DNA of 64,000 nucleotides, taken from the NCBI RefSeq assembly GCF_014243395.1, contig NZ_JACLCP010000001.1, positions 868,001 through 932,000 on the forward strand. The letters run 5' to 3'. The translations under genes and the position numbers were made by a program. This DNA comes from Winogradskyella flava (GTDB lineage Bacteria; Bacteroidota; Bacteroidia; Flavobacteriales; Flavobacteriaceae). Below, piece by piece: positions 18,640 through 35,026 of this stretch. Within the stretch, counting starts at the first letter, position 1. Each line of letters opens with the position of its first letter. The notes beneath the pieces were generated by a model. That model saw only the letters and a list, made by a program, of their open reading frames with translations, made no database searches and was not told where the DNA came from.

Positions 18640-18999
18640 ATGAACATAGAAGACTATAGAAACTATTGCATGTCTAAAAAGCGGGTTACCGAACATTTTC
18701 CTTTTGATGATGACGTGCTTGTGTTTAAAGTATGCAACAAAATGTTCGCTTTGGCTTCGCTTTCCAAATGGGAAAAAGGAGAAGGTTTTATAAATCTTAA
18801 GTGCAATCCAGAGTATGCAACAGAACTTCGGGCAGAATACGATAGTATTCAGCCTGGTTACCATATGCATAAAAAATCCTGGAACAGCGTTTATTTCCAT
18901 ACAGGAGAATTAACGGTAAAATTCATTATGGAACTAATCGATCATTCTTATGATGAGATCGTAAAAGGTTTGCCTAAAAAAGTAAGAGATAGTATTTAG
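18640..18999 (+). CDS. MmcQ/YjbR family protein
   Basis: 119 residues. The family signature is clear: CMSKKRVTEHFPFDDDVLVFKVCNKMFALASL near the start and GYHMHKKSWNSVYF in the middle. MmcQ/YjbR proteins have a double-wing fold and are presumed to bind DNA, without a known biological role. It is the last gene of the 13.5-19 kb run; the intergenic region after it begins the 21-bp repeat regulon. Confidence 0.9.
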   Translation: MNIEDYRNYCMSKKRVTEHFPFDDDVLVFKVCNKMFALASLSKWEKGEGFINLKCNPEYATELRAEYDSIQPGYHMHKKSWNSVYFHTGELTVKFIMELIDHSYDEIVKGLPKKVRDSI

Positions 19000-19034
19000 T
19001 TTTTCGATATTCAATTCAAAGATTGTTGCTCTCT

Positions 19035-19101
19035 ATTCAACTTCACTAAATGTTTACTCATCGAAAAAGTAAATTTTTCTAGGGAGTAGATTTTAGTTTT
19101 G
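19035..19101 (+). promoter_or_regulatory. LytTR-type repeats and promoter (site 2)
   Basis: ACTCATCGA (19056-19064) has an upstream partner ATTCAACTT (19035-19043) 21 bp away; the partner keeps ATTCA but not the TCGA core. TCGA ends 30 bp before the start of TAGTTTTG (19094-19101), a perfect TAnnTTTG box. The ATG of the next gene is at 19130. Confidence 0.6.
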
Positions 19102-19129
19102 ACTTATAATTAATTGAAAAGTTGAGACT

Positions 19130-19528
19130 ATGAACATTCTATTTACCTACTTTACCCTTACAGTTACTCAGATAAGTATTTACTTATATCTAAAGAGCAG
19201 TTTAAAAAATTTAATATTAGGCTATAAAGAGAGTGATGCAATTGCAACTAAGAATCATGCCGTAAAAAGACAAGAAGTATCCACCGACGAGATTACAAAT
19301 TCTAATGTTTTATCAAGTCATGTAGGTGAAAGTTGCAATGTTACTTTAAATAAAAGTTTAAGACATCTTGAGTTTATTTCTACGTTTGAAATGTATCTGG
19401 AGAATAAGAATCATAAAAATTTCTCAGTTGAGTTTCTGCAAGAGTTTGAGAAAATAAAACATGAAGCCCAATTAACAGCGCTTAAATCTACGAATCGTTT
19501 AACTCACAATATGCACAAAGCGGCTTAA
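19130..19528 (+). CDS. Small membrane-anchored protein of unknown function
   Basis: 132 residues. The first 24 residues form one hydrophobic helix (ILFTYFTLTVTQISIYLYL). The rest is polar and helical, with a segment HLEFISTFEMYLENKNHKNFSVEFLQEFEKIKHEA (about 82-116) that could be a coiled coil. No family is recognised. It has its own promoter of the LytTR-repeat type and lies directly upstream of the NO-sensor operon, so it probably belongs to the same regulon. Confidence 0.6.
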   Translation: MNILFTYFTLTVTQISIYLYLKSSLKNLILGYKESDAIATKNHAVKRQEVSTDEITNSNVLSSHVGESCNVTLNKSLRHLEFISTFEMYLENKNHKNFSVEFLQEFEKIKHEAQLTALKSTNRLTHNMHKAA

Positions 19529-19536
19529 TTTGGAAA

Positions 19537-19627
19537 ACCATTCGTCGACACTTATCTTCCATCCGTCGACACTTAATTACGCTCAACCGAAGTTTAATCA
19601 AATGTTTGCTTAATATCATCTAATTTG
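19537..19627 (+). promoter_or_regulatory. LytTR-type repeats and promoter of the NO-sensor operon (site 3)
   Basis: CCATTCGTCGACACTTA (19538-19554) and CCATCCGTCGACACTTA (19559-19575) are nearly perfect direct repeats exactly 21 bp apart. A weaker third core (CCGA, 19587-19590) falls on the same 21-bp phase. A -7-like TTTG lies at 19624-19627, in an octamer starting 30 bp after the third core; an alternative is AATGTTTG at 19601-19608. As the operon encodes a LytTR regulator, this suggests autoregulation. Confidence 0.75.
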
Positions 19628-19645: not shown

Positions 19646-20056
19646 ATGAATAAGCTAAAGGTTTTATTAATTGAAGATGATATGATTGAAGTGATGAAGC
19701 TTAACAGAGCTACAAGTTCACTCCAACTTAATCATACCATAATAGAAGCTAATAATGGCGAAGATGCTCTAAAATTACTGGAGCAGAAAGATAAACTTCC
19801 AGATATTATTCTTTTAGATCTAAATATGCCAAAGATAAATGGCATCGAATTTCTTAAGATTTTAAAGTCTGATTCTAGATTGAAATATATACCAACTATT
19901 ATTCTAACAACTTCCAATAATCAACGTGATTTATTAGAGTGTTTTAATATTGGGATTGCAGGCTATGTGCTTAAACCATTAAAATATGAAGAGTATGTAT
20001 CTAAAATCGAGAAATTATTGGCATATTGGAGTATTAATGAATTAATTACTACATAA
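19646..20056 (+). CDS. Single-domain (CheY/Rcp1-like) response regulator
   Basis: 136 residues, receiver only. Acidic pocket E10/D11/D12, phosphoacceptor D58 in IILLDLNMP, switch threonine in IILTTSNN and lysine in VLKPLKY are all present. With no output domain it would pass or quench phosphoryl groups, or act by protein contact. It is the first gene of the seven-gene sensor operon and its stop overlaps the H-NOX start (TAATG). Likely partners are the histidine kinases at 20595 and 23649 and the Hpt-like protein at 24802. Confidence 0.9.
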   Translation: MNKLKVLLIEDDMIEVMKLNRATSSLQLNHTIIEANNGEDALKLLEQKDKLPDIILLDLNMPKINGIEFLKILKSDSRLKYIPTIILTTSNNQRDLLECFNIGIAGYVLKPLKYEEYVSKIEKLLAYWSINELITT

Positions 20057-20595
20057 TGAAAGGCATAGTATTTACAGAGTTTTTAGATTTAGTCGAAGAT
20101 AAGTTTGGTTTGGATGTAGTTGATAAAATTATTGGAGCTTCTACTTTAGATTCTAATGGTATCTACACATCTGTTGGTACTTACAAATTTTCTGAGATGT
20201 TACAGTTGCTGCAACACTTAAGTGCGCACACTGGAATTTCCATTGATGATCTATTGTTGGTCTATGCAGAGCACTTTTTTAGTGTTTTAGAAGATAGTTA
20301 TCCTGGATTACTTGCTACATATAATGATCCTATTGAGATGATATCGTCTATCGAAAACCATATACATATTGAGGTAAGAAAAATATATCCAGATGCCGAA
20401 CTTCCAACCTTTGAGGTTCTGGAAAAAAAAGAAAATTCATTAGTGATGATTTATAAATCGAGTCGAGCAATGCATCATTTCGGTTTGGGATTAATGAATA
20501 AAACATTTGAGCACTTTAATTCTACAGCGACCATTGCATTAGAGAAAATTAAAGAAGATGGTACCGAAGTAAAGTTTGTGATTGCTAAAAATTAA
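20056..20595 (+). CDS. H-NOX haem nitric oxide/oxygen-binding protein
   Basis: 179 residues, the usual length for a stand-alone H-NOX. H-NOX proteins bind haem and sense NO, and commonly control a neighbouring histidine kinase or cyclic-di-GMP enzyme, often affecting biofilm. Visible hallmarks are the probable proximal haem ligand H104 in HIHIEVRKIYPDAELP and the haem-propionate clamp YxSxR as Y133-K-S135-S-R137. The N-terminal KGIVFTEFLDLVEDKFG is typical. The gene overlaps both its neighbours by one base (TAATG), so it is tightly coupled to the receiver upstream and the PAS kinase downstream. Whether it discriminates NO from O2 cannot be read reliably from sequence. Confidence 0.93.
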   Translation: MKGIVFTEFLDLVEDKFGLDVVDKIIGASTLDSNGIYTSVGTYKFSEMLQLLQHLSAHTGISIDDLLLVYAEHFFSVLEDSYPGLLATYNDPIEMISSIENHIHIEVRKIYPDAELPTFEVLEKKENSLVMIYKSSRAMHHFGLGLMNKTFEHFNSTATIALEKIKEDGTEVKFVIAKN

Positions 20596-22550
20596 TGAGT
20601 CAAGATCAAATTGACATACTAAAGCGTGCACTCGAACGCGAGAAACAAGCTAGAAAGGCTGCAGAAAAAATTCTCGAAGAGAAATCACGAGAACTTTATC
20701 AAACCTCTCAAAAATTAGAACTTTTATTAGATGAAAAGTCATCTCAACTACAAGGTGTTTTTGAGAATATTGTAGATGCCTATGTTGTTATGGATCTCAA
20801 TGGTGATGTTCTCAAATTTAACGAAGCAGCAGCTAGACTTTTTGGCTATGATATAGAGCAAGAGCCAGTAAATGTTATTAAACTTATTTACAAAGAAGAT
20901 TATGAATATGCCATGGTATCTTACATGGAACTTCAAAGCAAAGGTTTTTTTAAAGACTATGAAGCGAGGGTATACACGAAGTCAGGTGAAGTTAAATGGG
21001 TGCATATAAACGCTAGCATAGTTTATAATAGAGATAAAACACCAATTGCAGCTCAAGGTATCGTTAGAGATATAACTGAACAGAAAATTGCTGCTGAATC
21101 TCTTTTGAGATCCGAGAGTAGATTGGCTTCGCTAATTGTAAATCTTGATAGTGCTGTTTTGTTGGAAGATGAAAACCGTAAAATTGTATTAACCAACAAG
21201 AAGTTTTGTGATGTATTCAATATTCCTGTAGATCCCGATCAACTTAAAGGACAGGATTGTTCTGGTGCTGCAGAGCAGAGTAAAACTCTTTTTGAAGATG
21301 AAGATAATTTTGTCAATAGAATAAATGAGGTTCTAGAAAAAAGACAAACTGTTCTCGGTGACGAACTGGTAATGAAAAATGGAAAAATTCTAGAACGCGA
21401 CTTTGTTCCAATAATAAAAGATGGTATTTATCGAGGCCATTTGTGGACGTATCGCGATATTACACTCCAAAAAAATTACAGTGAAAGTTTAGAGAAACAA
21501 AAGCAAAAGTATAGTAGTATCATTGCCAATATGAACCTTGGTTTAGTTGAGGTCAATAATGATGATGAGATTTTAATGGTCAATCAGAGTTTTTTAGAAA
21601 TTTCGGGATATACCGAAGAAGAGCTTATAGGGAAAAAAGGAGGAAAACTTTTTTCAATTGATGATGGAAAAACAATTTCAGAAGAGAACTTAAAGCGTCA
21701 AAAAGGAGAGTCTAACTCTTACGAACTGAAGGTAAAGAATAAACACGGAGATGTGCGCTATTGGCTTATAAGCGGTGCCCCAAACTATAATTTAAATGGA
21801 GAAGTTATAGGTTCCATAGGTATACATTTAGATATTACGGATCTCAAGAGCTTGGAATACCAAAAAGAAAAATTACTCCAAAAACTAGAAAAAAGTAATG
21901 ATGAGTTACAAGAATATGCCCACATTGTATCACACGATTTAAAGTCTCCGTTAAGAAGTATTGATGCTTTGGTAAGTTGGTTAAGGGAGGACAATAAAGA
22001 GAAACTGGACGCGGCAAGTCTTCAGAATTTAGACTTAATTCAAACAACATTGGAAAAGATGGAACAACTCATTTCTGATGTTCTTAACTACTCAAGTGTT
22101 TCGGCAGATAATAGTGAAAATGCTGAAGTTGATATTGAGAGTCTAGTGGCAGATTTATTAAAGATACTTTACATCCCAGAACATATAAATGTTACAATTC
22201 ATAACGTGCTACCAAAGGTTATGGGTGATCAAATTAAATTGCAACAAGTCTTTCAAAACCTTATTAGTAATGCCGTAAAATTTAACGATAAGGATAATGG
22301 CTTAATTGAAATTGATGTTGCCGATGAAGGCAAATATTACAGGTTCTCAATAAAAGATAATGGAATTGGTATCGAACCTCAATTTCATGACAAAGTATTT
22401 AAAATTTTTCATTCCCTTAAAAAGAGTAAGGATTCTTCGGGTATAGGATTATCCATCGTTAAGAAAATCGTAAATCTTCACCAAGGTAAAATTTGGTTGG
22501 AGAGTGAATTAGGTTCAGGAACAATATTTTATTTTACACTAAAAAAATAA
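20595..22550 (+). CDS. Cytoplasmic PAS-domain sensor histidine kinase
   Basis: 651 residues without a membrane helix. An N-terminal coiled coil (about 5-50) is followed by three PAS domains (about 50-165, 172-290, 300-420) and a HisKA domain with H-box HIVSHDLKSPLRSIDAL (about 443-459). A HATPase_c domain closes the protein (N-box QNLISNAVKFN, G-boxes KDNGIGI and SSGIGLSIV). Location directly after H-NOX makes it the probable H-NOX-associated kinase: in characterised systems NO-bound H-NOX changes kinase autophosphorylation. PAS domains could add redox or small-molecule input. Its C-terminal half closely resembles that of the second kinase at 23649. Confidence 0.92.
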   Translation: MSQDQIDILKRALEREKQARKAAEKILEEKSRELYQTSQKLELLLDEKSSQLQGVFENIVDAYVVMDLNGDVLKFNEAAARLFGYDIEQEPVNVIKLIYKEDYEYAMVSYMELQSKGFFKDYEARVYTKSGEVKWVHINASIVYNRDKTPIAAQGIVRDITEQKIAAESLLRSESRLASLIVNLDSAVLLEDENRKIVLTNKKFCDVFNIPVDPDQLKGQDCSGAAEQSKTLFEDEDNFVNRINEVLEKRQTVLGDELVMKNGKILERDFVPIIKDGIYRGHLWTYRDITLQKNYSESLEKQKQKYSSIIANMNLGLVEVNNDDEILMVNQSFLEISGYTEEELIGKKGGKLFSIDDGKTISEENLKRQKGESNSYELKVKNKHGDVRYWLISGAPNYNLNGEVIGSIGIHLDITDLKSLEYQKEKLLQKLEKSNDELQEYAHIVSHDLKSPLRSIDALVSWLREDNKEKLDAASLQNLDLIQTTLEKMEQLISDVLNYSSVSADNSENAEVDIESLVADLLKILYIPEHINVTIHNVLPKVMGDQIKLQQVFQNLISNAVKFNDKDNGLIEIDVADEGKYYRFSIKDNGIGIEPQFHDKVFKIFHSLKKSKDSSGIGLSIVKKIVNLHQGKIWLESELGSGTIFYFTLKK

Positions 22551-22551
22551 T

Positions 22552-23649
22552 ATGCTAATAACATCTACAAATATTACTGAAATTGTTAGTGTAATCTCCG
22601 ATCATGTTAATCAAAATGCGGCTTTAATCACCGTTGGTGAGCACACTGAAATAGATATTGATAATTTAATTGAAGAGCTCAATACAGCAGGACTGCGTTT
22701 TATGGGAGGCCTTTTTCCAAAGGTGATTCATGGCAATTCTATTTTAGACAAGGGGATTGTGATTAATACACTTAATAATCTCGAATCTATGTTTTTAATT
22801 AAAAACATTAGTACTAAAGATTATGAAATCCCAGAGGTTCATTTTAAGCAAAATCAAGATTACAGCTTATTTACTTATGTCGATGGATTAACCTCAAATA
22901 TATCACACTATCTAAGTGAGCTTTACGAGCACTACGGTATGCAGACCAATTACTTTGGCGGAGGCGCTGGTAGTTTATCTCTAGAACAACAACCCTGTGT
23001 GTTTTGTAATGATGGTATTTTTCAGGATGCAGCGGTGTTTGCCGTTATGAGTATGTCATCTAGAATTGGTGTGCGACATGGTTGGAGCAAAGTAGAAGGG
23101 CCATTTATTGTTACAAAAGCCGAAGGAAATATTATCAAAGAGATCAATTGGAGAAATCCATTTGAAGTCTACAAGGAAGTTGTGGAAGCGCACTCAGGTA
23201 AAACCTTTACAGATGATAATTTTTTCGATATTGCCAAAGGGTATCCATTTGGTATTGTAAAGGATAATGCAGAATGTATTGTAAGGGATCCGCTAATGGT
23301 TAACGAAAATAATGAGTTAGTCTGTGTAGGCGAGTTAGAAGATAACACGCTGGTGGATATTTTAAATGGTAATGAAGCATCATTAATTGCCGCGGCAGAA
23401 GAAGCTACTAAGGAAAGTGTAGCCCAAGCTATAATGCCTAGAAAGGCAATAATTATAGATTGTATTTCTAGAATATTGTTCCTGGAAGAAAACTTTGACA
23501 AAGAACTTACGGCCATTACAAGTACAATACAAAATCATTTTCCAGAGGTTTCAATTGGTGGTGCCTTAACGCTTGGAGAAATTTCCTCTTACGGTGAAGG
23601 ATTTTTAGAATTTTATAATAAAACAGTGGTTGTAGGACTCTTTGAATAA
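22552..23649 (+). CDS. FIST domain protein (NosP-like candidate NO sensor)
   Basis: 365 residues with FIST_N (about 15-200; GLRFMGGLFPKVIHGN, YFGGGAGSLSLEQQPCVFCNDG) and FIST_C (about 215-350; FGIVKDNAECIVRDPLMVNENNEL). Some FIST proteins, named NosP, bind haem and sense NO and regulate adjacent histidine kinases. This gene lies between two histidine kinase genes and two genes after H-NOX, so a NosP role is likely but not proven from sequence. I did not identify the haem-ligand histidine with confidence. Alternatively it may sense amino acids, the role first proposed for FIST domains. It overlaps the following kinase by one base. Confidence 0.87.
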   Translation: MLITSTNITEIVSVISDHVNQNAALITVGEHTEIDIDNLIEELNTAGLRFMGGLFPKVIHGNSILDKGIVINTLNNLESMFLIKNISTKDYEIPEVHFKQNQDYSLFTYVDGLTSNISHYLSELYEHYGMQTNYFGGGAGSLSLEQQPCVFCNDGIFQDAAVFAVMSMSSRIGVRHGWSKVEGPFIVTKAEGNIIKEINWRNPFEVYKEVVEAHSGKTFTDDNFFDIAKGYPFGIVKDNAECIVRDPLMVNENNELVCVGELEDNTLVDILNGNEASLIAAAEEATKESVAQAIMPRKAIIIDCISRILFLEENFDKELTAITSTIQNHFPEVSIGGALTLGEISSYGEGFLEFYNKTVVVGLFE

Positions 23650-24815
23650 TGAAAATTGAAAATCATATATTAGATATTCTTCAACTTTATGAATACGCCA
23701 TGGCTATAGGCAAATCATCGGACTATAAAGAAAGTTGTGATTTGTTTTTAAAACTGCTCTTAAAGCGAAAAAATTTAAATGCATCGTGGATTCTAGAAAA
23801 AAATGAAAACCATTTACAATCCTCTTACTCAATTCCTTTAGGTGATGAGGTAAAAAAAGAACAAAATGCTTCAATTGCGACCTTATTAGAAGATGTAAAA
23901 GTAAGTAAGTTACTTACTGCAGATGATGTTCTAGCTTCCATAGCAACAATTGAGATAGAAAGTGGCGTTGTAGCTATTTTTAACTTGGATGCGCAAGGCT
24001 ATCTCTTTTTATACACTAAAAAAGATAATATCTCCTTAAAAGACATCACACAATTACAACCTGTAATTAATAAGTTCTCAACAAGCTTAAAAGCTTGTAA
24101 AGCTTTTTCAGCTCAGGAAAAACTGTTGAAGAGTCTCGAAATTCAAAATCAAGAGTTAAGCGATTACGCGCATATGGTTTCTCATGATTTAAAATCACCT
24201 TTACGCAGTATAGATACACTAACAGCATGGTTAAAGGACGATTACAGTGATAAATTGGATGCCTCTGGGAATAAGAACCTTGGACTTATTAGGAATAGTG
24301 TAGAAAAAATGGACACTTTAATTAACGGAATTTTGGCCTATTCTACAATTGGCAAGAATAGATTTGAGGTTTATGATGTAGACCTTAACAATCTTGTTAA
24401 GGATGTTCTCAGTCTTATTAGAATACCAGATCATATCTATATTATTACACAGGATTTACCGGTGATAAAAGGTGATAAATATAGACTGCAACAGTTATTT
24501 CAGAATTTAATAACCAATGCTATTGCTTATAACGATAAGGACAAGGGCCTCGTAGAAATTGATGTTAAAGATCAAAATGAGTTCTGGCAGTTTTCTGTTA
24601 AAGATAATGGCATAGGAATTGAAGAAACCTATTTTGAAAAGATTTTTAAGACCTTTCAAAAGCTGGAGAATAATAAAGCATCTACAGGAATTGGTCTTTC
24701 AATTGTAAAAAAGATTGTTGACTTATATGGAGGCACAATATGGTTAACTTCAGAGTTGGGAAAAGGAACAACATTTTATTTCACCTTGAAAAAACAAAGT
24801 AATGGAACAGCCTAA
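23649..24815 (+). CDS. Cytoplasmic sensor histidine kinase (FIST-associated)
   Basis: 388 residues, soluble. The N-terminal 150 residues resemble a GAF-type sensory fold (ILQLYEYAMAIGKSSDYKESC is a common start in Bacteroidota). They are followed by a short linker, a HisKA domain with H-box HMVSHDLKSPLRSIDTL (about 177-193) and HATPase_c (QNLITNAIAYN, KDNGIGIEE, STGIGLSIV). It is a probable duplicate of the kinase core at 20595. It starts within the stop of the FIST gene and overlaps the Hpt-like gene by 14 bp. Two kinases, one per candidate NO sensor, may converge on a shared output. Confidence 0.9.
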   Translation: MKIENHILDILQLYEYAMAIGKSSDYKESCDLFLKLLLKRKNLNASWILEKNENHLQSSYSIPLGDEVKKEQNASIATLLEDVKVSKLLTADDVLASIATIEIESGVVAIFNLDAQGYLFLYTKKDNISLKDITQLQPVINKFSTSLKACKAFSAQEKLLKSLEIQNQELSDYAHMVSHDLKSPLRSIDTLTAWLKDDYSDKLDASGNKNLGLIRNSVEKMDTLINGILAYSTIGKNRFEVYDVDLNNLVKDVLSLIRIPDHIYIITQDLPVIKGDKYRLQQLFQNLITNAIAYNDKDKGLVEIDVKDQNEFWQFSVKDNGIGIEETYFEKIFKTFQKLENNKASTGIGLSIVKKIVDLYGGTIWLTSELGKGTTFYFTLKKQSNGTA

Positions 24816-25119
24816 TTTATCCTACATAGAGAGTATGTCAGGGGGTGATAAAGCTTTTGAGGAAAAACTTATTGGGATCATACAAAAAGAGTTTCCTGAA
24901 GAGAAGCATGTTTACTTTGATAATATTACAGCAAGCAATTTTAAAGAAGCTGCTGAGAACGTTCATAAACTTAAACATAAAATTAGTATTTTAGGACTTG
25001 TAAAAAGTTATGAAGTTGCAGTGAACTATGAAGATCATCTCATTGAAAACAGCACTAAAGGCAGGGATGATTTTGAGGCTATTTTGCAAATCATGACAGA
25101 TTTTTTAAAGACCCTATAA
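24802..25119 (+). CDS. Hpt-like histidine phosphotransfer protein
   Basis: 105 residues, all helical. The motif ENVHKLKHKISILGL (about 53-67) matches the Hpt pattern (A/N)-x-H-x-L-K in its region; H55 or H59 is the candidate phospho-histidine. Hpt proteins shuttle phosphoryl groups between receivers. It overlaps the kinase gene by 14 bp and precedes the LytTR regulator by 9 bp. A multistep relay kinase - receiver (19646) - Hpt - LytTR regulator is plausible, but the exact wiring is inferred. Confidence 0.78.
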   Translation: MEQPNLSYIESMSGGDKAFEEKLIGIIQKEFPEEKHVYFDNITASNFKEAAENVHKLKHKISILGLVKSYEVAVNYEDHLIENSTKGRDDFEAILQIMTDFLKTL

Positions 25120-25128
25120 GCGTATTTT

Positions 25129-25839
25129 ATGAATTGTATTATTATTGATGATGAAGCTACGGCAAGAGCCATAATTGGACAATTGTGCAGCAATGTGGCA
25201 AGCTTAAATGTTTTAGAGGAGTTCCCAAATGCAATTCAAGCCATTAAATATCTTAATCAAAATGAGGTCGATTTAATCTTCCTTGATATTCATATGCCAG
25301 ACTTTACAGGTTTCGATTTTATAGAAACTTTAAAAAATCCTCCAAAAATAGTGTTGACCACATCAGATGCCAACTTTGCTATTCAGGCTTTTGAGTACGA
25401 TTGTATTGTAGATTATTTGGTAAAACCAATCACACCAGAACGTTTTCAAAAGGCTATTCAAAAGGCAGAGGCAGTAAAAAGTGTTGTAAAACCAAAAGGC
25501 GATGCAAACAAGGTAGAAACTAGCTCTGGTAACGATCTTTATGTCAACATTGATAGACGTCTTATTAAAATTGATATTCCTAGTATTTACTTGGTAGAGG
25601 CCAAAGGTGACTACATCCATGTAAAGACTGAGGACAAGAACTACACGGTACATTCTACACTTAAGAAAATTGAGGAAAAACTACCAGATAGTTTATTCCT
25701 TAAAGTACATCGTTCTTACATTATCAATGTCGATAAGATTATTGATATCGAAGACAATAGTGTCTTGATAAAAAAAGATGTCATTCCCGTAAGTCGTTCT
25801 AATCGTCCAGAGTTAATGAAACGTCTTAATTTACTTTAA
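25129..25839 (+). CDS. LytTR-family DNA-binding response regulator
   Basis: 236 residues. The receiver (1-115) has D7/D8, phosphoacceptor D53 in IFLDIHMP, T78 in VLTTS and K99 in YLVKP. The LytTR domain (about 135-236) shows the family blocks IYLVEAKGDYIHV, TLKKIEEKLP, FLKVHRSYIIN and IPVSR. LytTR regulators bind direct repeats spaced by two helical turns and usually activate transcription. Exactly such repeats occur upstream of this operon and seven other loci in the window, so this protein is the best candidate for their regulator. It is the last gene of the sensor operon; a hairpin GTTCATG/CATGAAC follows at 25855-25877. Confidence 0.94.
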   Translation: MNCIIIDDEATARAIIGQLCSNVASLNVLEEFPNAIQAIKYLNQNEVDLIFLDIHMPDFTGFDFIETLKNPPKIVLTTSDANFAIQAFEYDCIVDYLVKPITPERFQKAIQKAEAVKSVVKPKGDANKVETSSGNDLYVNIDRRLIKIDIPSIYLVEAKGDYIHVKTEDKNYTVHSTLKKIEEKLPDSLFLKVHRSYIINVDKIIDIEDNSVLIKKDVIPVSRSNRPELMKRLNLL

Positions 25840-25887: not shown

Positions 25888-25978
25888 ACCATTCATCGAC
25901 ACTTACTCGTATTCTAACACTATCATTTTTGTGTCAATCGAAAATCCCTAAATAAACTGTAATTACAAGCTAGTTTTG
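25888..25978 (+). promoter_or_regulatory. LytTR-type repeats and promoter (site 4)
   Basis: ACCATTCATCGACACTTA (25888-25905) is close to the consensus unit. A third unit on the same phase has TCGA at 25938-25941, exactly 42 bp after the first TCGA (25896-25899). The middle unit (about 25909-25926) is degenerate. The last core ends 30 bp before TAGTTTTG (25971-25978). No -33 TTTG is visible, as expected for an activator-dependent promoter. The T9SS gene begins at 26005. Confidence 0.75.
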
Positions 25979-26004: not shown

Positions 26005-28614
26005 ATGATACAGCGTTACTCTTTAAAAAATCAACTTGCACTAATAGCACTATTAGTTCTAAGTTTTAGTAGTCTAGCACAGGAGGATATTCCTTTTAAT
26101 TGCGACTATAACGCTTATTTATTTCAGTATAATGATGTTTACGCAATAGACCTAGCGTCTGGAAATTCTTATCAAGTTGCTACTGATGTAACACCAGGAA
26201 ATATAAATGCAGCAGCCTACAACCCAGCAGACGGATTTATTTGGGGTTCATTAACCTCTCCTGCTAAGACTATTGTTAGAATAGGCAAAAACTTTACAAC
26301 ATCTACATTTTATATTGATGAGTTGCCAACTAGCAGCAGGTATGTAGGTGATGTAAGCGCAGCAGGTATATATTATCTAAAAGGTGGTGGGACAACGTAT
26401 TATAAAATAGATTTAGATCCAGATTCTCCAAACTATGCACAGCACCAAGCTACAGAAAATTTATCCTTAAATATCAGCGTCCACGATTGGGCGTTTAATG
26501 CCGTAGATGGTCAATTATATACGGTTGAGAAAGGTTCTAATAAATTATATAGAATTAATCCATCAAATGGACAAGTAACCTCTTTAGGAATAGTGCCAAT
26601 TTTAGATGGTAATAATTACACCTACGGTGCAGTGTATTTTGATGCTGATGGTCGTTTCTATGTGTCAGCAAACCAAACAGGAACTATATACGTGATTCAA
26701 GAAGTACAGAATGTAACGTCTGCTGTAGATATGGATTCTAACCTATTTGCGTTTGGACCGTCCAGTAATAGTAATGATGGCGCGCGTTGCCCAACAGCAC
26801 CTGTATTACAAGAAATATGTGATAATGGTATTGACGATGATGGTGATGGCCTTATAGATTGCCAAGACCCATCATGTTCTGGGTTTGGAATGTGTGATGT
26901 TATTGAGCCACCGACATCTGGTGGAAATGAGGGCGGATTAGAAAGTAATAACAGACTTTCAGAGCAGATTAATGCACGTAATTTCAATAGAGCGAGAACA
27001 GGCTATACCTTTGATAGATCAAGTGCATCTCGAGTAACACGTGGTTTAGAATATGCTCATCGAAATCCAAATAGTGGTTTTACTTTAGAAGATTTTATTC
27101 CATTAGATATCATTGGCGAAACGGAAACCATAAACTCTACACCTGCAGATTTGATAAGTATTACGAATGCTACTGAGATTTTTGCAGTAGATTATATGAA
27201 CGTCGATACACCAATCGCCTCCATATTGGCCTTAAAAACTGAGAATGGTGTATATGAGCATACAAAGTATATCTGTGATCGTTTATTAGGTGCCGAGTTA
27301 ATCACAGTAAACACTATAACTATTAACGACCAAGCATTTATTAAGTCTATTATTAAAAATATAGACGGGACGTATGAGTTTGTCTTAAGCTTATCGGCTA
27401 AGGTGATTAATAATAATCAGAACTTTGCTATAGAAAGCCATTGGAATTTAGACCAGTACGAAGATGATGTGACGTTCTATAACTTCCAGATATGGTCTAA
27501 CTCCATAGACGACTTATACCACTTAGGCGAAGAATTGTTGAATTTATTAGACGTAAAAAAACCAATTACTACTTATAATAACTCAGCACCACCAACAGTA
27601 TTTGTAAGAAAAGGACAGTATATCAATGGCGGTTTGGATTTGCAAATTATTAATACTAACGGAACGGAAAGTATCAATTTAGATGCTGGATATAGAGCGA
27701 CAGAAACAAGCGATTTCGAAACCATTAATAGTACCCTAGCCTTAAACGGCCAATATATCACCAATTTGAGGGTTGAGACCGGATATTTATTTGATATTGG
27801 ATTTAGAATTGGTGATGGTATGGCCACACCAGACGACTTATTTATGTCGGATGGGCCTTGGGGAATTGATGCTTCACAATTAGGAACAGAAGTCGCTTTG
27901 TACGATGTTACAGCTAATAATTTTGAGTTTGAAGCTAGCGATTACCCCATAGAGCGTAATGTAGACTTAAGAGCAACAACTAATACTTATGTAGCAGCTT
28001 ATAGAGCCTTAACGCCACGTTTTAAAGCTGTAGATCTAACGGATTATAGTGCATTAAAATTGAGGGCGAAAGGCACAGGTAATCTAGAAATTACGTTTGT
28101 AAAAGAAAGTATTTCCAATTGGGAAGACCAATTTAAAACAACAATCACATTGTCTAGTGCTTTTCAAGATTTTGTATTGCCAATACAAGATTTTGAAACA
28201 TTAAACGGTGGGGCGACTAGTGTGGTATTAGATGATGTGGTTACTATTGTGTTTACTATGGTCTCTGAGGACGGTGCTATGAGCTCTAAGGAGATGAACT
28301 TAGAAAATCTGAGGTTATCATTAGACAGTGCATTATCTGTAGACGATTTTATTGCAGATGCTAATAACATCCGAGCATATCCAAACCCGATGATCTCTAA
28401 AACTACAATTGAGTTTACAGTAGCACAAACTGAAACGTTGCAATTTGTAGTCTTTGATCAGTTAGGAAAGCAAGTGTATAATACAACTTATAATGCTGTA
28501 CAAGGAAGGAACAGCATCACCCTTAACAGAAACGACTTAAGCACAGGCTTATACTTCTGTAAAATTATTAGTGATCAGTATAACATTAATCCCTTAAAAC
28601 TGATTATTAATTAA
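26005..28614 (+). CDS. Large T9SS-secreted surface protein
   Basis: 869 residues. The parts in order are: a signal peptide (about 8-25, QLALIALLVLSFSSLAQ); a propeller-like region resembling DUF6923 (about 30-265, with VYAIDLASGNSYQVATDV); a calcium-binding-like motif ICDNGIDDDGDGLIDCQDP (about 272-290); an uncharacterised middle domain; a jelly-roll or CBM11/CIA30-like segment (about 680-775, SALKLRAKGTGNLEITFVKE); and a C-terminal type A sorting domain (about 795-869, AYPNPMISKTTIEF, LSTGLYFCKI). It should be exported by the type IX system and attached to the cell surface or matrix. Its promoter carries the LytTR repeats and it follows the sensor operon, so it may be a biofilm matrix or adhesion protein. 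Ligand unknown. Confidence 0.8.
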   Translation: MIQRYSLKNQLALIALLVLSFSSLAQEDIPFNCDYNAYLFQYNDVYAIDLASGNSYQVATDVTPGNINAAAYNPADGFIWGSLTSPAKTIVRIGKNFTTSTFYIDELPTSSRYVGDVSAAGIYYLKGGGTTYYKIDLDPDSPNYAQHQATENLSLNISVHDWAFNAVDGQLYTVEKGSNKLYRINPSNGQVTSLGIVPILDGNNYTYGAVYFDADGRFYVSANQTGTIYVIQEVQNVTSAVDMDSNLFAFGPSSNSNDGARCPTAPVLQEICDNGIDDDGDGLIDCQDPSCSGFGMCDVIEPPTSGGNEGGLESNNRLSEQINARNFNRARTGYTFDRSSASRVTRGLEYAHRNPNSGFTLEDFIPLDIIGETETINSTPADLISITNATEIFAVDYMNVDTPIASILALKTENGVYEHTKYICDRLLGAELITVNTITINDQAFIKSIIKNIDGTYEFVLSLSAKVINNNQNFAIESHWNLDQYEDDVTFYNFQIWSNSIDDLYHLGEELLNLLDVKKPITTYNNSAPPTVFVRKGQYINGGLDLQIINTNGTESINLDAGYRATETSDFETINSTLALNGQYITNLRVETGYLFDIGFRIGDGMATPDDLFMSDGPWGIDASQLGTEVALYDVTANNFEFEASDYPIERNVDLRATTNTYVAAYRALTPRFKAVDLTDYSALKLRAKGTGNLEITFVKESISNWEDQFKTTITLSSAFQDFVLPIQDFETLNGGATSVVLDDVVTIVFTMVSEDGAMSSKEMNLENLRLSLDSALSVDDFIADANNIRAYPNPMISKTTIEFTVAQTETLQFVVFDQLGKQVYNTTYNAVQGRNSITLNRNDLSTGLYFCKIISDQYNINPLKLIIN

Positions 28615-28740: not shown

Positions 28741-29274
28741 GTGAGAAGTAACATAATTTTTATGGGAGGAATTCACGGTGTAGGAAAGGGTACTATTTGT
28801 GAAGAATTGTGTGAGTGTTTTAATTTTAAGCATCTTTCTGCAAGTGATGTTCTCAAATGGGAAGAGATTAGTGATAAAAAAAATAAAAAAGTTCTAAATA
28901 TTAATTCAACTCAAGAAAGACTCCTATATGGATTATCACAAATAATTGAACCCACTAATAATTATTTACTTGATGGTCATTTTTGTTTACTCAATTCTGA
29001 AGGTGAACCTGAAAGAGTTCCAGAAAATACTTTTCTTAAAATTAATCCATTTGCAATAATAATTATAACTTGTGATGTAGAAACAATATCAAGCAGATTA
29101 AAAAACCGAGATAAAGTGAATTATTCAATCAAGGTTTTACAAGATATGCAGGATTTAGAAATTACCTTTGCCAAAGAAATCTCCCTTAAGTTAAGTATAC
29201 CCTTTTTTAATGTTAAAACAAGTGATGATATTTCGCTTCAAGCTTTTTTGAGACATTATGAGAGTACTTATTGA
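28741..29274 (+). CDS. P-loop NMP-kinase-like ATPase of the PIN/ASCH cassette
   Basis: 177 residues from the GTG at 28741 (MRSNIIFMGGIHGVGKGT). The frame is open to a TTG at 28678, but that lies in the upstream terminator; an ATG at 28762 would cut off the first strand. Walker A is GIHGVGKGT. LLDGHFCLL is a Walker B-like DxxH segment, and SSRLKNRDK resembles the adenylate-kinase LID arginines. The fold is AAA_18/adenylate-kinase-like, so it probably phosphorylates a nucleotide or RNA end. It overlaps the next gene by 17 bp, which ties it to the PIN protein. The cassette is very AT-rich compared with its surroundings. Confidence 0.72.
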   Translation: MRSNIIFMGGIHGVGKGTICEELCECFNFKHLSASDVLKWEEISDKKNKKVLNINSTQERLLYGLSQIIEPTNNYLLDGHFCLLNSEGEPERVPENTFLKINPFAIIIITCDVETISSRLKNRDKVNYSIKVLQDMQDLEITFAKEISLKLSIPFFNVKTSDDISLQAFLRHYESTY

Positions 29275-30778
29275 TACTAATATTATTATTCATCGAGAAG
29301 CCAGTCGAGTTCTAAACAAGGATATTGGTTTGCTTTTTAATTGGTTAGATCGATTAAATTATGAAAAGTGTATTCACCCGCTTTCTATTGAAGAAATTTC
29401 TACTTATCAAGATAAGAACGTAGTTGAGACAATGAAAGTGAAGATAGATAATTATAATCTTCTTAAAACAGAATCCAATGATAAAGATTTAATACTAGAA
29501 CTTAGAAAAACAGATAAGAGCAAGAACGATTCTATCGACACTAGTATTATTAAAGAAGTCTACAACAATAGAGTTCAATATTTAATTACTGAAGATAGAG
29601 GGATTCATCATAAGGCAAGAATTTTAGGAGTATCAGAACGAGTTTTTAAAATAGATGATTTTTTGGAAAAATCAATTGCCGAAAACCCGGATTTAAAAGA
29701 CTATCAGGTTCTAGCTGTAAAAACAGAATATTTTGGTAATATCGATTTAGAAGATGTTTTTTTCGATTCCTTTAAAGAGGATTATAAAGAATTTGAAAAT
29801 TGGTTTAATCGTAAGTCTGATAAAGTATCATATGTCTGCATAACTGATGATACTGTAAAAGCTTTTCTTTACTTAAAGGTTGAGAAAAAAAATCAAGAAA
29901 ATTACTCAGACATTTCACCTCCATTTATACCTAAAAAGAGATTGAAAATAGGAACTCTTAAAGTAACATCAACTGGCTATAAGCTTGGAGAAAGATTCCT
30001 AAAAATAGTTTTTGATAATGCACTTGAAAATAAGGTTGAAGAAATTTATGTCACAATTTTTGATAAAAGAGAAGAGCAAAGACGCCTAATATACTTGCTT
30101 CAAGATTGGGGTTTTAAAGAATGGGGAATTAAAAAAACTGTAAATGGTTACGAAAAAGTATATGTTAGAACTTTTGGAAAGAATTTACCGATTAATTTAA
30201 GTAACCCTAAAGAAACTTTTCCTTTTATTTCTAGAAAAACGAGAAAATATATTATTAAAATAGAACCTGAATATCATAGGGAATTATTTCCAGACAGTGT
30301 AAATACTAGAGAGAGTAAGGATGGTTTAATGGATAATGAACCTCATCGAAACCGTATTGATAAGGTTTATATCTCACATAATAAAGATAGACATTTAGAA
30401 AAAGGGGATATTGTAATAATATATAGAATAGGTGAAACCAGTCCGAAAAGATTTTCTAGCACTGTTACTTCAATTTGTATAGTTGATGAAGTTTTTGATA
30501 ATATTAAATCCTTTAATGATTTTTATCAAATTTGTAATAGAAGAACTTTTATAACTAAATCTGAATTAGATTCAAATTGGTGGAATAAAATTCCAAAGGT
30601 TAGGCCTTTTGTTATTAACTTGCTTTACGCACATTCTCTTCCCACACCTAAGCCTACTTTAAACAATCTCATAGAATTGGGTATAATTGAAAGTGTTTTT
30701 AATATACCTAGAGGATTCATTGAGATTAGTAATAGTCAATTCAATTCTTTAACTAACTTTGCTTACAGAGTTAAATAG
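29258..30778 (+). CDS. PIN nuclease fused to GNAT-like and PUA/ASCH-like domains
   Basis: 506 residues in three parts. The PIN domain (about 1-140) has the acidic set D6 (VLIDTNIII), E45/E46, D94 (SIDTSI) and D113 (TEDRGIHHKA). A GNAT acetyltransferase-like region (about 175-310) includes KLGERFLKIVFDNALENKVEEIYVT. A C-terminal region (about 325-506) with EYHRELFPDS and HLEKGDIVIIYRIG resembles PUA-like EVE/ASCH RNA-binding folds. PIN domains cleave RNA, and ASCH/EVE domains recognise RNA or modified bases. The fusion suggests an RNA-targeting or RNA-modifying effector. Its neighbours are a kinase-like ATPase and a stand-alone ASCH protein. A toxin or phage-defence role is inference. Confidence 0.75.
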   Translation: MRVLIDTNIIIHREASRVLNKDIGLLFNWLDRLNYEKCIHPLSIEEISTYQDKNVVETMKVKIDNYNLLKTESNDKDLILELRKTDKSKNDSIDTSIIKEVYNNRVQYLITEDRGIHHKARILGVSERVFKIDDFLEKSIAENPDLKDYQVLAVKTEYFGNIDLEDVFFDSFKEDYKEFENWFNRKSDKVSYVCITDDTVKAFLYLKVEKKNQENYSDISPPFIPKKRLKIGTLKVTSTGYKLGERFLKIVFDNALENKVEEIYVTIFDKREEQRRLIYLLQDWGFKEWGIKKTVNGYEKVYVRTFGKNLPINLSNPKETFPFISRKTRKYIIKIEPEYHRELFPDSVNTRESKDGLMDNEPHRNRIDKVYISHNKDRHLEKGDIVIIYRIGETSPKRFSSTVTSICIVDEVFDNIKSFNDFYQICNRRTFITKSELDSNWWNKIPKVRPFVINLLYAHSLPTPKPTLNNLIELGIIESVFNIPRGFIEISNSQFNSLTNFAYRVK

Positions 30779-30782
30779 ATTT

Positions 30783-31154
30783 ATGAAAGTAATATTATCG
30801 ATCAAACCAGAGTTTGCATTCAAGATATTTGAAGGGACAAAGAAGTTTGAATTTCGTCGAGTGTTATTCAAAAATAAAGAAATCAAAAATGTGGTGGTTT
30901 ACGCTTCTGCTCCAGTTAGTAAAGTTATTGGAGAATTTGAAATCGATACAATTTTTCAACAAGATTTGAATACTCTTTGGAGTAAAACCTCAGAATTTTC
31001 AGGAATAACTCAGGACTATTATACTGATTATTTTGAAGGAAAAGATGAGGGATTTGCTATAAAAGTAAAGAATCCAAAAATGTATGATAGTCATCTTTGT
31101 ATTAAAGAGTCTTTTGGTTTAAACCCGCCTCAATCTTTCGCATATATAAGATAA
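30783..31154 (+). CDS. ASCH domain protein
   Basis: 123 residues from the ATG at 30783 (MKVILSIKPEF), 4 bp after the PIN gene stop; an upstream TTG at 30759 would overlap that gene. The ASCH signature is clear: LSIKPEFAFKIFEGTKKFEFRR, a central VVVYASAPVSKVIGEFEI and a C-terminal ending in PPQSFAYI. ASCH proteins have a PUA-like beta-barrel and are predicted RNA binders; a few hydrolyse acetylated cytidine. It is the third gene of the cassette. Only 22 bp separate it from the end of the convergent TPR/beta-barrel gene, with no recognisable terminator. Confidence 0.85.
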   Translation: MKVILSIKPEFAFKIFEGTKKFEFRRVLFKNKEIKNVVVYASAPVSKVIGEFEIDTIFQQDLNTLWSKTSEFSGITQDYYTDYFEGKDEGFAIKVKNPKMYDSHLCIKESFGLNPPQSFAYIR

Positions 31155-31176: not shown

Positions 31177-33225
31177 TTACTTTCCTGAAAACACCCACTT
31201 AAACCGCAATCCAACTTCCGTAAACGTAAAACCAGCAGCAGTCGCAGACGCAATGTTACTATGGGTTCCATAGATATTGAGTAAGCTACGCTCAGAGAAT
31301 TTATAGCCAAACGCACCTTGTACTCTATAAGCGGTTTGCTTTGGGTCGTCTTCTATAAATTGGTAGCCAAAAGCACCTGTTAGATTATAAAACCATTGGT
31401 TGGGTTTGGCAGTCGCTTCATCTTTAATAAGATTTACAAAAACTTCATAAGCATTAAATTGTTCTGGACTAAAATAGATGGTTGGGACCTGATCTTTAAA
31501 GGTGATGTACTGGTAATTGACGCCTACTTTTAAATTTGGCTTAGGTAAAAGGTTATAATACAACGACGTAAATATTAAGTTTCTGGTATTACCATCATTT
31601 TGTGCTGTGTGCATCAGTTGCGTGTACCACCCTAAGTTAACATTGGTGCTTAAGTTATAGCTGAGGTAATAGTTATTTTGTACCAACTCTCTATCTAATA
31701 AGTCGGCATTAAAACTTTCTACCTGGCGCTTATAACCAATATCTAAAGTCTGTAATTTAAAGGTCTTAATATTAAATGAGAGGTCAGTTAAGAGTTGTGT
31801 GTAATCTGTACTTTCTGCTTTTGCAGACGTTAAACCTGCAGTGCCTTTAAAAGTGATGTTTGGTACCACTTGGTACCCCAGCCCTAAAGATAAGTTATTA
31901 GAGTTAGCTGTATTATCTGTAACCGTATTGTTTGTAGTTCTATAATTGTAGTTACCTAAAATGCTCAATCGACGAGATAAGGGATAAGTGATGTTAGTGT
32001 TAAAGGTATAGGCTTTGTTATCCCCATTATCAAAAGTATGCGCGGCTCTAGAGTCTAAGTTTGGGCTAAAGCTTATGTTCATTGTATTAATAAAGTTCAC
32101 TGCATCTTTTTGGTTGTTATAAAAGGTTAAGGTGTTTTCTGCTGAAGCATAGGCATCATCAAAACGACCCAAAGCTTTTAAGACATTTGCTTTACCAAGG
32201 TTACCATCAAAAGAGGTGCTATCGTTAGCTAGGATTAGGTTATAATCAGCCAAACTTTGTTTAAAGTTGCTCTTATAAATATTTAAAGTGGCGCGTAAAG
32301 CTAAGACCCAATTTTGGTTTGGGTAATCTGTAATAAGCTGTTCAATTAACGTTTGAGCGACTTTATATTTTTTATTCCAAATCAACGCTTGTACATAACG
32401 TTCTGTGGTTTGTTTTGAGATAGTAGCATCCGTAGCATCTGTTATGCGTTTATAGGCTTCCGTACTAAAATCTAAAGCTTGTTTTTCTTTTCCGTGAAGG
32501 TGCGCTACCAAAGCCAGTCCATTTAAAGCCTGTGTTTTATGTTCTGGTTGTTCGGCTAATCGTTTGTAGGTGACTTCTGCCTCATCTAGCTTTTCCCATA
32601 TTAAATATAGATTCGCTAAATTCAATAAGGTGTCTTTGTCATCACCAAATAATTCAAGGTTCTTGGTTAAAAGCAATTCGGCTTTGTCATAATCTTGTGC
32701 TTGTTGGTTTTGGTAGGCATATCCTAAATAGATATACTTTTTTGAGGTTAATGCATTTGGGTTACCTGGAGAAACGTCTAAGGCTTTATTCACATAGTTT
32801 AAAGCACTTTCGTACTCCTTAAGGTTAGATAAAGTATTGGCAAAACCTAATAAAGCAGCAAAGCTTTTAGGATCTTCTGTTACTAAATCTTTGTAATAGG
32901 TTTTAGCAGCAGTAAAGCTATTATTCCATAATAAAGACTCCCCGTAGTTAAGCTTTACTTCAAAATCATTTGGGTAATCCTTTAAGAGATCAGTAAATAA
33001 TAGATTGGCAGTTTCTGCTTTTCCGTTTAACCCAATGGCACGTCCATAACATAGTCGCGCGGTTTTATTATTTGGATAGTCTTTTAAGATCGTATTAAAA
33101 AAGGTTTCTGCTTGTGCATATTGACCAGTTTCTAAATAGGTAAAACCCTCTTGCATATTCTGTGCAGAAATGCTCAAAGCCATACATAATATACAATAGG
33201 TAATTACTGATTTTAAAGTCTTCAT
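31177..33225 (-). CDS. TPR protein with C-terminal YaiO-like outer-membrane beta-barrel
   Basis: 682 residues: signal peptide (about 1-21, ending SISAQ), about ten TPRs (about 25-375), then a beta-barrel (about 390-682) of YaiO/BcsC-like type with alternating strands and final strand TEVGLRFKWVF. TPR-barrel fusions such as BcsC and PelB form the outer-membrane export channel for exopolysaccharides, with the TPRs in the periplasm. Its position among flippase, glycosyltransferase and hydrolase genes supports the same role here. No LytTR-type site could be fitted to its own promoter, so its control may differ from its neighbours. Confidence 0.8.
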   Translation of the reverse strand: MKTLKSVITYCILCMALSISAQNMQEGFTYLETGQYAQAETFFNTILKDYPNNKTARLCYGRAIGLNGKAETANLLFTDLLKDYPNDFEVKLNYGESLLWNNSFTAAKTYYKDLVTEDPKSFAALLGFANTLSNLKEYESALNYVNKALDVSPGNPNALTSKKYIYLGYAYQNQQAQDYDKAELLLTKNLELFGDDKDTLLNLANLYLIWEKLDEAEVTYKRLAEQPEHKTQALNGLALVAHLHGKEKQALDFSTEAYKRITDATDATISKQTTERYVQALIWNKKYKVAQTLIEQLITDYPNQNWVLALRATLNIYKSNFKQSLADYNLILANDSTSFDGNLGKANVLKALGRFDDAYASAENTLTFYNNQKDAVNFINTMNISFSPNLDSRAAHTFDNGDNKAYTFNTNITYPLSRRLSILGNYNYRTTNNTVTDNTANSNNLSLGLGYQVVPNITFKGTAGLTSAKAESTDYTQLLTDLSFNIKTFKLQTLDIGYKRQVESFNADLLDRELVQNNYYLSYNLSTNVNLGWYTQLMHTAQNDGNTRNLIFTSLYYNLLPKPNLKVGVNYQYITFKDQVPTIYFSPEQFNAYEVFVNLIKDEATAKPNQWFYNLTGAFGYQFIEDDPKQTAYRVQGAFGYKFSERSLLNIYGTHSNIASATAAGFTFTEVGLRFKWVFSGK

Positions 33226-33269
33226 GTTTGTTGTATTTAACTAAATGCAAGTTACGGACGAAGACCGCT

Positions 33270-33339
33270 TCATTCATCTACAGCAAACGACCATCCATCG
33301 AAATAGAACGCTCATACATGGAATTGCAGAAGATATTTG
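33270..33339 (+). promoter_or_regulatory. LytTR-type repeats and promoter (site 5)
   Basis: CATTCATCTACAG (33271-33283) and CCATCCATCGAAA (33291-33303) have their cores TCTA (33277-33280) and TCGA (33298-33301) exactly 21 bp apart. The last core ends 31 bp before GATATTTG (33332-33339), a near-consensus -7 box. It drives the STAS gene at 33381 and probably the flippase after it. Confidence 0.65.
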
Positions 33340-33380
33340 TGTCAGAAATGAATCAATAACCATTTAAAAATTACAAAATT

Positions 33381-33662: not shown

Positions 33663-33692
33663 AATTATATTTTTAATGTAAAACGAAAAATC

Positions 33693-34952: not shown

Positions 34953-34955
34953 TTA

Positions 34956-35026
34956 ACCATTCGTCTACACTAAAAAGTAACCCATCTAAGCACAGCCTTT
35001 TTTGTCTTTTTTAAACCCCACATTTG
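34956..35026 (+). promoter_or_regulatory. LytTR-type repeats and promoter (site 6)
   Basis: ACCATTCGTCTACACTA (34956-34972) and a weaker unit ending CCCATCTAAGC (34981-34991) have TCTA cores at 34964-34967 and 34985-34988, 21 bp apart. The last core ends 31 bp before CACATTTG (35019-35026), a -7-like box with C for the first T. The GT4 gene starts at 35065. Confidence 0.65.

Follow-up and report, generated by a model that had tools for sequence, protein, structure and literature searches.

A putative split phosphorelay with two sensory inputs, predicted to control a local exopolysaccharide regulon in Winogradskyella flava

Introduction

Signalling by H-NOX and NosP is described mostly from Proteobacteria, often via cyclic di-GMP (c-di-GMP), in the accessible text of PMC8738867. 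What does an H-NOX operon control in a member of the Bacteroidota whose genome has no GGDEF domain? This question is raised by seven genes of Winogradskyella flava (Flavobacteriaceae), at positions 19646–25839 of a 64,000-nucleotide stretch (contig NZ_JACLCP010000001.1, positions 868,001 to 932,000) hereafter called the window. The original prediction, made from the letters of the window, read them as two candidate nitric oxide (NO) sensors, each with its own soluble histidine kinase, placed ahead of an Hpt protein and a LytTR regulator, i.e. a distinct NO circuit of Bacteroidota. We propose, with a probability of about 0.62, that the operon is a split phosphorelay with two sensory inputs which would control a local exopolysaccharide regulon via LytTR boxes. 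This reading is drawn from sequence comparison.

Results

Gene content and conservation of the operon

All seven genes lie on the forward strand, and Pfam and the coordinates of the open reading frames (ORFs) agree on the predicted positions. The first gene (19646–20056) encodes REC, a single-domain receiver (PF00072, E 9.5e-22) and the proposed first phosphate acceptor. It is followed by the haem NO/O2-binding domain protein H-NOX (20056–20595; PF07700, E 2.1e-38) and by its partner histidine kinase HK1 (20595–22550), in which Pfam recognises PAS stretches, HisKA and HATPase_c behind an N-terminal coiled-coil-like segment. The second arm is composed of a FIST protein, referred to below as type A (22552–23649; PF08495, E 2.4e-27; PF10442, E 2.6e-21), and of the FIST-partner kinase HK2 (23649–24815), where an N-domain of about 150 aa, called NTA, precedes a conserved kinase core. 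A free-standing phosphotransfer protein, Hpt (24802–25119), and a LytTR response regulator (25129–25839; PF00072, PF04397), the proposed final acceptor and transcription factor, complete the operon. The genes are joined by three TAATG overlaps of 1 bp, one 1-bp gap, a 14-bp overlap (HK2/Hpt) and a 9-bp gap. Hydropathy shows no stretch resembling a membrane helix in any of the seven proteins, while two control membrane proteins have many; both kinases thus look soluble, and gene order and hydropathy agree that each sensor has a soluble kinase of its own.

The source genome (99.95% complete) has one H-NOX and one FIST protein by profile searches. H-NOX is present in 105/299 sampled genomes of the same family and in 27/395 genomes of a sample of the phylum. 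The search for this gene order that the original prediction had called for was made on two sets, which have some genomes in common. Among 100 of the 108 family H-NOX matches (the eight others being the window's own, two partial ones, G112 and G076:C2, and five set aside by choice, G106, G083, G293, G271 and G079), the full order REC-HNOX-HK-(FIST-HK)-Hpt-LytTR is found in 86: 48 with a FIST protein of type B, 2 with type A and 36 with a single kinase and no FIST. Among the 80 best named relatives it is found in 76 (48 type B, 4 type A, 24 without FIST); in the four others the contig ends early (L038, L075) or begins late (L074), or the kinase gene is split (L079). The 14 incomplete sampled loci comprise three REC-HNOX-HK-FISTB-HK-Hpt with no LytTR in reach, three REC-HNOX-HK only, one ending at the second kinase, one ending at FIST, and L083, L094, L142, L168, L172 and L174. 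Such recurrence in both sets indicates that the order is more than chance. Outside the family, but within the class, the same operon is carried by L252. Thus REC, H-NOX, HK1, Hpt and LytTR are a constant chassis, and the FIST-HK2 arm is optional.

Other arrangements were seen: L142 has H-NOX-HK-REC-Hpt-LytTR, and L169, L171 and L173 combine REC-HNOX with a kinase about 830 aa long. A YjbR protein and a small ORF (19130–19528), together at 18640–19528, stand 5' of the operon and recur in a number of named loci.

Relay proteins

The kinase motif HDLKSP or HDLRSP is present in 132 of 136 kinases. The phosphate acceptors are invariant: Asp58 of REC (80/80, as is its Asp11), His55 of Hpt (80/80) and Asp53 of the LytTR regulator (79/79). 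The latter is recognised by both of its profiles, REC at 68.1 bits and LytTR at 76.3 bits. Hpt scores below the Pfam gathering value (PF01627, 17.5 vs 24.6 bits). However, its AlphaFold2 model (predicted local distance difference test, pLDDT, 95) matches solved Hpt domains first, the first 21 Foldseek matches being Hpt proteins (E 0.16 or weaker, top probability 1.00). With this fold and the conserved phospho-accepting histidine, the assignment as an Hpt protein is supported in spite of the low profile score.

Long hybrid kinases beside H-NOX or FIST-A bear on the order of the steps. Seven were tested, chosen by a REC-profile flag and not at random: L083, at a non-canonical locus of the window's family, and six that belong to other families of the class. 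Each of them has HisKA-HATPase-REC-Hpt in a single chain, with Hpt above the cut-off in five. Other outgroup H-NOX kinases, e.g. those of L247 and L251, have no such REC match. In L248 the H-NOX, the hybrid kinase and a LytTR regulator are consecutive. Because related loci fuse kinase, REC and Hpt in one protein, the order HK, REC, Hpt, LytTR is supported, and the operon looks like a fused relay that was divided into separate proteins, so that both kinases could use the one receiver and the one Hpt.

The H-NOX arm

The HNOB domain of H-NOX scores 132.3 bits against a curated cut-off of 25.5, which places the protein in the family. H-NOX proteins are defined by the proximal histidine and the YxSxR motif. 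Both are conserved here, His102, Pro117, Tyr133, Ser135 and Arg137 being each present in 81/81 sequences. For comparison of the distal pocket we aligned through YxSxR, on what we take to be the Cs numbering of this motif, so that the last position of the O2-type triad is shifted by two residues (140 to 142). The distal positions are non-polar: Phe9 and Phe142 in 81/81 and Phe74 in 80/81. Hence the window H-NOX has Phe9, Phe74 and Phe142, an NO-type distal pocket, at the positions of the hydrogen-bonding triad Trp9/Asn74/Tyr140 given for O2-binding H-NOX in PMC7356049. These residues fit an NO sensor, as far as sequence can tell.

The nearest solved chain to this H-NOX is 6bdd, from the Kordia algicida H-NOX domain, on which Hespen et al. 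have reportedly done structural work. Both proteins have Ala71 in the hinge; position 71 is Ala in 78/81 and Gly in 3/81 sequences. PMC7356049 likewise uses 6bdd as the Kordia algicida H-NOX. The strain K. algicida OT-1 (L058) has the same operon as the window, with a type B FIST.

A strict form of the N-terminal coiled-coil-like motif of HK1 is found in 43/55 HK1 and 17/26 solo kinases and in 0/55 HK2. In the collected loci the motif occurs in 96 ORFs, every one directly after an H-NOX, a tie which is suggestive only because these loci are mostly centred on H-NOX. As to NO metabolism, nitrous oxide reductase (TIGR04246) was not found in the source genome by a search whose cut-off no control genome passed, other NO enzymes not being searched.

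LytTR-like boxes in the operon promoter and beyond

What could the LytTR regulator act on? Alignment of 17 loci revealed, 5' of REC, a direct repeat formed by ATTCGTCGACACTTA and CATCCGTCGACACTTA with a period of 21 bp, in surrounding DNA that is little conserved. This pair of boxes (19538–19575, + strand) begins 108 bp before the REC start and leaves a footprint over 80 upstream regions. PMC4064291 describes, in its accessible text, imperfect direct repeats about 12 bp apart for LytTR regulators, with the AlgR core CCGTTCGTC. The core of the boxes, whose period is 21 bp, resembles this AlgR site; they are predicted sites. A consensus score of at least 21 out of 31 is reached by 70/80 upstream regions, window included, and by 0/400 shuffled regions. 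The window itself scores 31 by construction since it served, with its alignment, to write the consensus.

A position weight matrix (PWM) was trained on 69 other loci with the window excluded. In the sampled set 93/100 loci had a usable REC for promoter scoring, and 66/93 operon promoters reach PWM 20, some genomes being shared between training loci and sampled promoters. In the window the PWM matches are at 19538 (60.0), 34957 (21.0), 19559 (21.0, overlapping the first), 42151 (17.9), 34936 (17.6), 33270 (14.0) and 25889 (11.8). No further match of 5 or more was found, and 20 Markov windows gave none of 3 or more.

The sites outside the promoter also lie on the + strand, in front of genes that would form a local regulon. 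The one at 25889–25926, which contains a single box with one mismatch, precedes a DUF6923 protein with a C-terminal signal of the type IX secretion system (T9SS) (26005–28614, +; PF21959, PF18962), a candidate regulon member that is also located 3' of the operon in many relatives. The site at 33270–33307, absent from the single-box matches and with an equivalent in L331, precedes a STAS-domain protein (33381–33662, +; PF01740), close behind which stands a polysaccharide flippase-like protein (33693–34952, +; PF13440). Overlapping pairs at 34936–34994 precede a group 1 glycosyltransferase (35065–36288, +; PF13692, PF00534); none is found before the equivalent gene in L331. The last site (42151–42188) is located 117 bp before REC-GT2, a receiver fused to a family-2 glycosyltransferase (42268–43455, +; PF00072, PF00535), whose receiver residues are intact in 30/30 loci, window included. 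The distances to the start codons at 19646, 26005, 33381, 35065 and 42268 are all 108–129 bp, on the same strand.

The boxes are also local on the scale of the genome. A whole-genome search with the single box gave five matches with 0–1 mismatch, all in this window and two of them in the operon promoter. The matches with two mismatches are six, all outside the window; the reversed control gave six in total. A two-box pattern with three mismatches was set aside: its 96 genome-wide matches against 194 for the reversed control are mostly noise, and only the PWM and the single-box search are relied on. Of its 91 matches outside the window 17 were scored by PWM, and none reached 4. Beyond the source genome, a site of PWM at least 6 is present within 400 bp before 44/59 relatives of the DUF6923 gene; the simpler expression for a single box occurs within 300 bp before 37/59 of them and in 2.8% of random stretches.

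Linkage of the operon to REC-GT2

Orthologues of REC-GT2 (best match at E 1e-90 or better) are present in 62/299 genomes, own included. H-NOX is found in 56/62 genomes with REC-GT2 vs 49/237 without it (Fisher p 1.6e-24, not corrected for ancestry), and REC-GT2 in 6/194 genomes without H-NOX. In 51 of the 56 genomes with both, the two genes lie within 40 kb, the median being 18.6 kb. A second member of the genus, G157, has neither H-NOX nor a REC-GT2 orthologue (best E 7.6e-12).

We took 48 regions upstream of REC-GT2, that of G048 being too short, and scored those of 42 of the 56 H-NOX genomes and 5 of the 6 without H-NOX. The best site is at –113 to –123 in 23/42 H-NOX genomes. Three of the H-NOX-less genomes have no site: G123 and G278, both 99% complete (6% contamination in G278), and G238, 82% complete, where the best match, at –120, is below threshold. 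In G123 the equivalents of 31177–43964 are present in the same order; no H-NOX was detected, and no site of PWM 6 within 18 kb. G168, which has the operon, carries sites before its DUF6923, STAS and REC-GT2 genes.

Two genomes have an extra single receiver beside REC-GT2, 62–63% identical to the REC-GT2 receiver (G265:C5:105332–105679 and G044:C3:180802–181149). Their best box match is located about 520 bp 5' of REC-GT2, below threshold in G044.

The FIST arm and exchange of sensor and kinase N-domain

The FIST protein had been predicted to be a NosP-like haem sensor. It does contain the FIST_N and FIST_C domains of NosP (96.5 and 76.6 bits). Its score on the NCBIfam NosP equivalog is 31.9 bits for a cut-off of 450, and five type B relatives reach 47–59 bits; it is thus not a NosP by this model. 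FIST types A and B share about 21% identity. Type A is devoid of the C-terminal Cys and His (CQLHNQT) which are near-invariant in type B. We looked for a common haem-ligand histidine: none is shared by the two types, which have only Cys304 in common. His176 is invariant in type A (12/12). No solved sequence relative was found at E up to 10. Four fold matches of the AlphaFold model (pLDDT 83) reach E 0.001 or better, all of them chains of human FBXO22, which has a FIST domain itself. Altogether the haem-sensor part of the original prediction is not borne out.

The type of FIST is matched to the N-domain of the kinase that follows. Among 145 FIST genes, 10 of type A precede an NTA kinase and 128 of type B an NTB kinase, none is crossed and 7 have no recognised partner. 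This count covers loci other than the window's own, the short loci L183–L211, and L213, L214, L216 and L217 (these four replaced by longer ones); 34 of the 145 genes come from a class-wide set, mostly outside this operon, and the part from named loci is not independent since the N-domain profiles were derived from them. The N-domains themselves are unrelated at E<1e-3 between types (0/250 A-B pairs) and related within types (20/20 for A, 2450/2450 for B). A Pfam scan of the two kinase N-domains gave no family above cut-off.

The cores tell another story: the mean identity of HK2 cores is 65% between A and B loci, 66% within B and 70% within A. In a quick tree of 91 kinase cores, the HK1 cores group with those of the solo kinases (support 100), and the five HK2-A cores are nested, at two places, in a 28-row HK2-B group (support 89, not starred). 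The window HK2 core is closest, with 75% identity, to an HK2-B of Winogradskyella. The simplest account of these sequences is that sensor and kinase docking domain were replaced together on a kept kinase core.

One locus (L174:5853–6962) has an NTB-type FIST-partner kinase, yet no FIST gene is recognised between its two kinases, perhaps through loss of the sensor.

The neighbouring polysaccharide cluster

The genes of the polysaccharide cluster span about 31–45 kb of the window, and the label "exopolysaccharide" would follow from their families. In addition to the candidate regulon members, the cluster contains a TPR protein divergent from the STAS gene (31177–33225, –; C-terminal DUF2490 below cut-off; conserved in L330 and L331), a glycoside-hydrolase-like TIM barrel (36278–37792, –; PF02836), an Ig-like domain protein (37789–39000, –; PF09134 and PF02369, both below cut-off) and a large membrane protein by hydropathy (39000–42089, –; PF10131 below cut-off; 74–77% identical in L330 and L331). 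These minus-strand genes from 36278 to 42089 need not be under the boxes, though the 42151 site sits between divergent genes. On the + strand, REC-GT2 is followed by a short ORF (43473–43964; stretches 39% identical in L330 and L331) and a phosphomannose isomerase (43975–44976; PF20511, PF21621).

A second STAS gene (46192–46482) stands near the cluster, and the PWM scan found no box before it. Two ORFs (29258–31154) separate the DUF6923 gene from the cluster; in L331 about 1.2 kb lies between the matches to these two neighbours.

Discussion

Gene order, sensor-kinase pairing, fused relay homologues, conserved boxes and the linkage of the two loci are established by comparison. The mechanism we propose from them is a split four-step phosphorelay (His-Asp-His-Asp). 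H-NOX would bind NO and set the activity of HK1, probably via the N-terminal segment of this kinase, while FIST would set that of HK2 through its own N-domain. Both kinases would phosphorylate the product of the first gene, a receiver that they share; phosphate would go from there to the free Hpt and finally to the LytTR regulator. Once phosphorylated, the latter is predicted to bind the paired boxes spaced by 21 bp, about 110 bp before its own operon and before the local regulon, i.e. the T9SS-type protein, the STAS protein, the flippase, the glycosyltransferase and the receiver-glycosyltransferase fusion. NO-bound H-NOX would inhibit HK1, so that NO may lower relay output and polysaccharide synthesis. 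This sign of control is taken from other systems where H-NOX inhibits its kinase, e.g. HnoX and HahK of Vibrio fischeri (PMC12369376, accessible text).

Several observations weigh against this proposal. Phosphotransfer, DNA binding, haem binding and effects on expression are all predictions. There are 19 LytTR domains in the genome, so that the boxes could be read by a different regulator; we infer their reader from autoregulation and co-occurrence. The receiver at 19646 could be a phosphate sink. The FIST arm is absent from 36/100 sampled operons, and the tree places two HK2-B cores (L053, L057), weakly, on the side of HK1. The co-occurrence statistic of H-NOX and REC-GT2 ignores shared ancestry. 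A REC-GT2 site of PWM at least 5 is present in only 22/42 H-NOX genomes, most of the divergent ones being without site, and, of the five genomes scored that have REC-GT2 but in which no H-NOX was detected, two do have one (G147 and G062, 73 and 84% complete). Finally, G168 lacks a site in front of the gene that corresponds to 35065.

One rival explanation is a branched two-component system, in which HK1 and HK2 phosphorylate LytTR directly, with REC and Hpt as sink, drain or side branch. Single receivers can act as phosphate sinks, and the Hpt profile score below the Pfam cut-off is in line with this scheme. Fused HK-REC-Hpt homologues occur, however, at H-NOX and FIST loci, one of them followed by LytTR, and REC and Hpt are kept in the 86 full-order operons, even the 36 without FIST; we regard direct phosphorylation as unlikely. 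The operon could also be mainly a switch for NO stress or redox state, the cluster boxes being read by a different LytTR regulator and the linkage being inherited synteny. The number of LytTR domains, the divergent relatives without recognisable REC-GT2 site and the uncorrected statistic would all agree with it. But the highest-scoring box stands in the promoter of the operon itself and the best matches of the whole genome all lie in this neighbourhood, the 99% complete genome that has the cluster and not the operon has no site, and REC-GT2 is rare where H-NOX is missing. This makes such a switch a quite improbable explanation.

The nature of the FIST input is a separate matter. Type A may neither sense NO nor bind haem and respond to another ligand, in which case the operon would integrate NO with another signal unrelated to it, as the split relay allows. 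The low NosP score, the lack of type B's C-terminal Cys and His, the single shared Cys304 and the strong fold matches to FBXO22 alone point in this direction, against which stand the invariant His176 and the fact that NosP proteins, themselves FIST proteins, bind haem (PMC12570481, accessible text). We give this reading of type A slightly less than even odds. The split relay could, in turn, have a wider reach: Hpt might feed LytTR and, directly, the receiver of REC-GT2, so that NO would set matrix synthesis both by transcription and by phosphorylation of an enzyme, with no c-di-GMP. Two exchangeable sensor-kinase arms would then share the relay, the FIST arm being a plug-in slot whose sensor and docking domain change as a unit. 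This extension is speculative and rather unlikely.

That no GGDEF protein takes part, as had been noted from the window, agrees with wider searches: no GGDEF domain was found in the source genome by a search positive in 8/14 control genomes (EAL and HD-GYP not searched), nor in any of 20 H-NOX genomes tested. The idea of a distinct Bacteroidota NO circuit can thus be kept for the H-NOX and FIST arms, the Hpt, the LytTR output and the lack of GGDEF, and is not supported for FIST as a NosP-like haem sensor. Beyond it, we add a probable polysaccharide output, boxes before operon and cluster, and the exchange of the FIST cassette. A Bacteroidota family with GGDEF in 0/21 H-NOX genomes searched has retained an H-NOX operon for which both a defined DNA target and a polysaccharide output are predicted; direct gene control appears to stand in place of the c-di-GMP route of other bacteria. 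With target and output predicted, the function of Bacteroidota H-NOX proteins can be put to a direct test. The joint replacement of FIST type and N-domain on one core suggests where on the kinase FIST acts, and supplies natural chimeras.

In Spo0-type phosphorelays kinases, a single receiver, a phosphotransferase and a DNA-binding regulator are separate proteins acting in this order. The operon has the same split layout, with different protein families and with H-NOX and FIST as inputs. The closest characterised parallel we found is the pathway of V. fischeri from HnoX-HahK through SypF/LuxU and SypG to syp (PMC12369376), where H-NOX likewise controls a co-encoded kinase, and the signal runs via Hpt proteins to the transcriptional regulator of a polysaccharide locus. 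According to the accessible text, hnoX-hahK is there a two-gene operon, SypF works for other kinases too and SypG acts as the regulator, whereas here the receiver, the Hpt, the second kinase with FIST and the LytTR regulator are all inside the H-NOX operon. In NosP-VpsS-LuxU of Vibrio cholerae (PMC6769237) the NO sensor NosP is also co-encoded with a kinase feeding an Hpt and biofilm genes; the accessible account has it feed a quorum-sensing pathway, with no H-NOX in the pair, and the FIST protein here is not a NosP by NCBIfam. NosP-NosK-NosR (PMC12570481, accessible text) resembles the second arm in that a FIST protein adjoins a kinase without transmembrane regions and with an unassigned N-terminal region of about 130 aa, but NosR is an HD-GYP receiver tied to c-di-GMP, in place of which the operon has LytTR and a second kinase. 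FIST genes near H-NOX have already been noted for group 1 H-NOX, with examples including Cellulophaga and Runella (PMC8738867, PMC7108781). The accessible text of these reports gives proximity only and does not contain the relay, the FIST types, the boxes or the polysaccharide output, and the open-licence literature, to which our search was confined, with subscription papers outside its scope, yielded nothing on the relay or output of this operon among the matches listed. Known before is the presence of FIST near group 1 H-NOX; new, as far as this search goes, would be the proposed relay, the two FIST types, the paired boxes and the predicted polysaccharide regulon.

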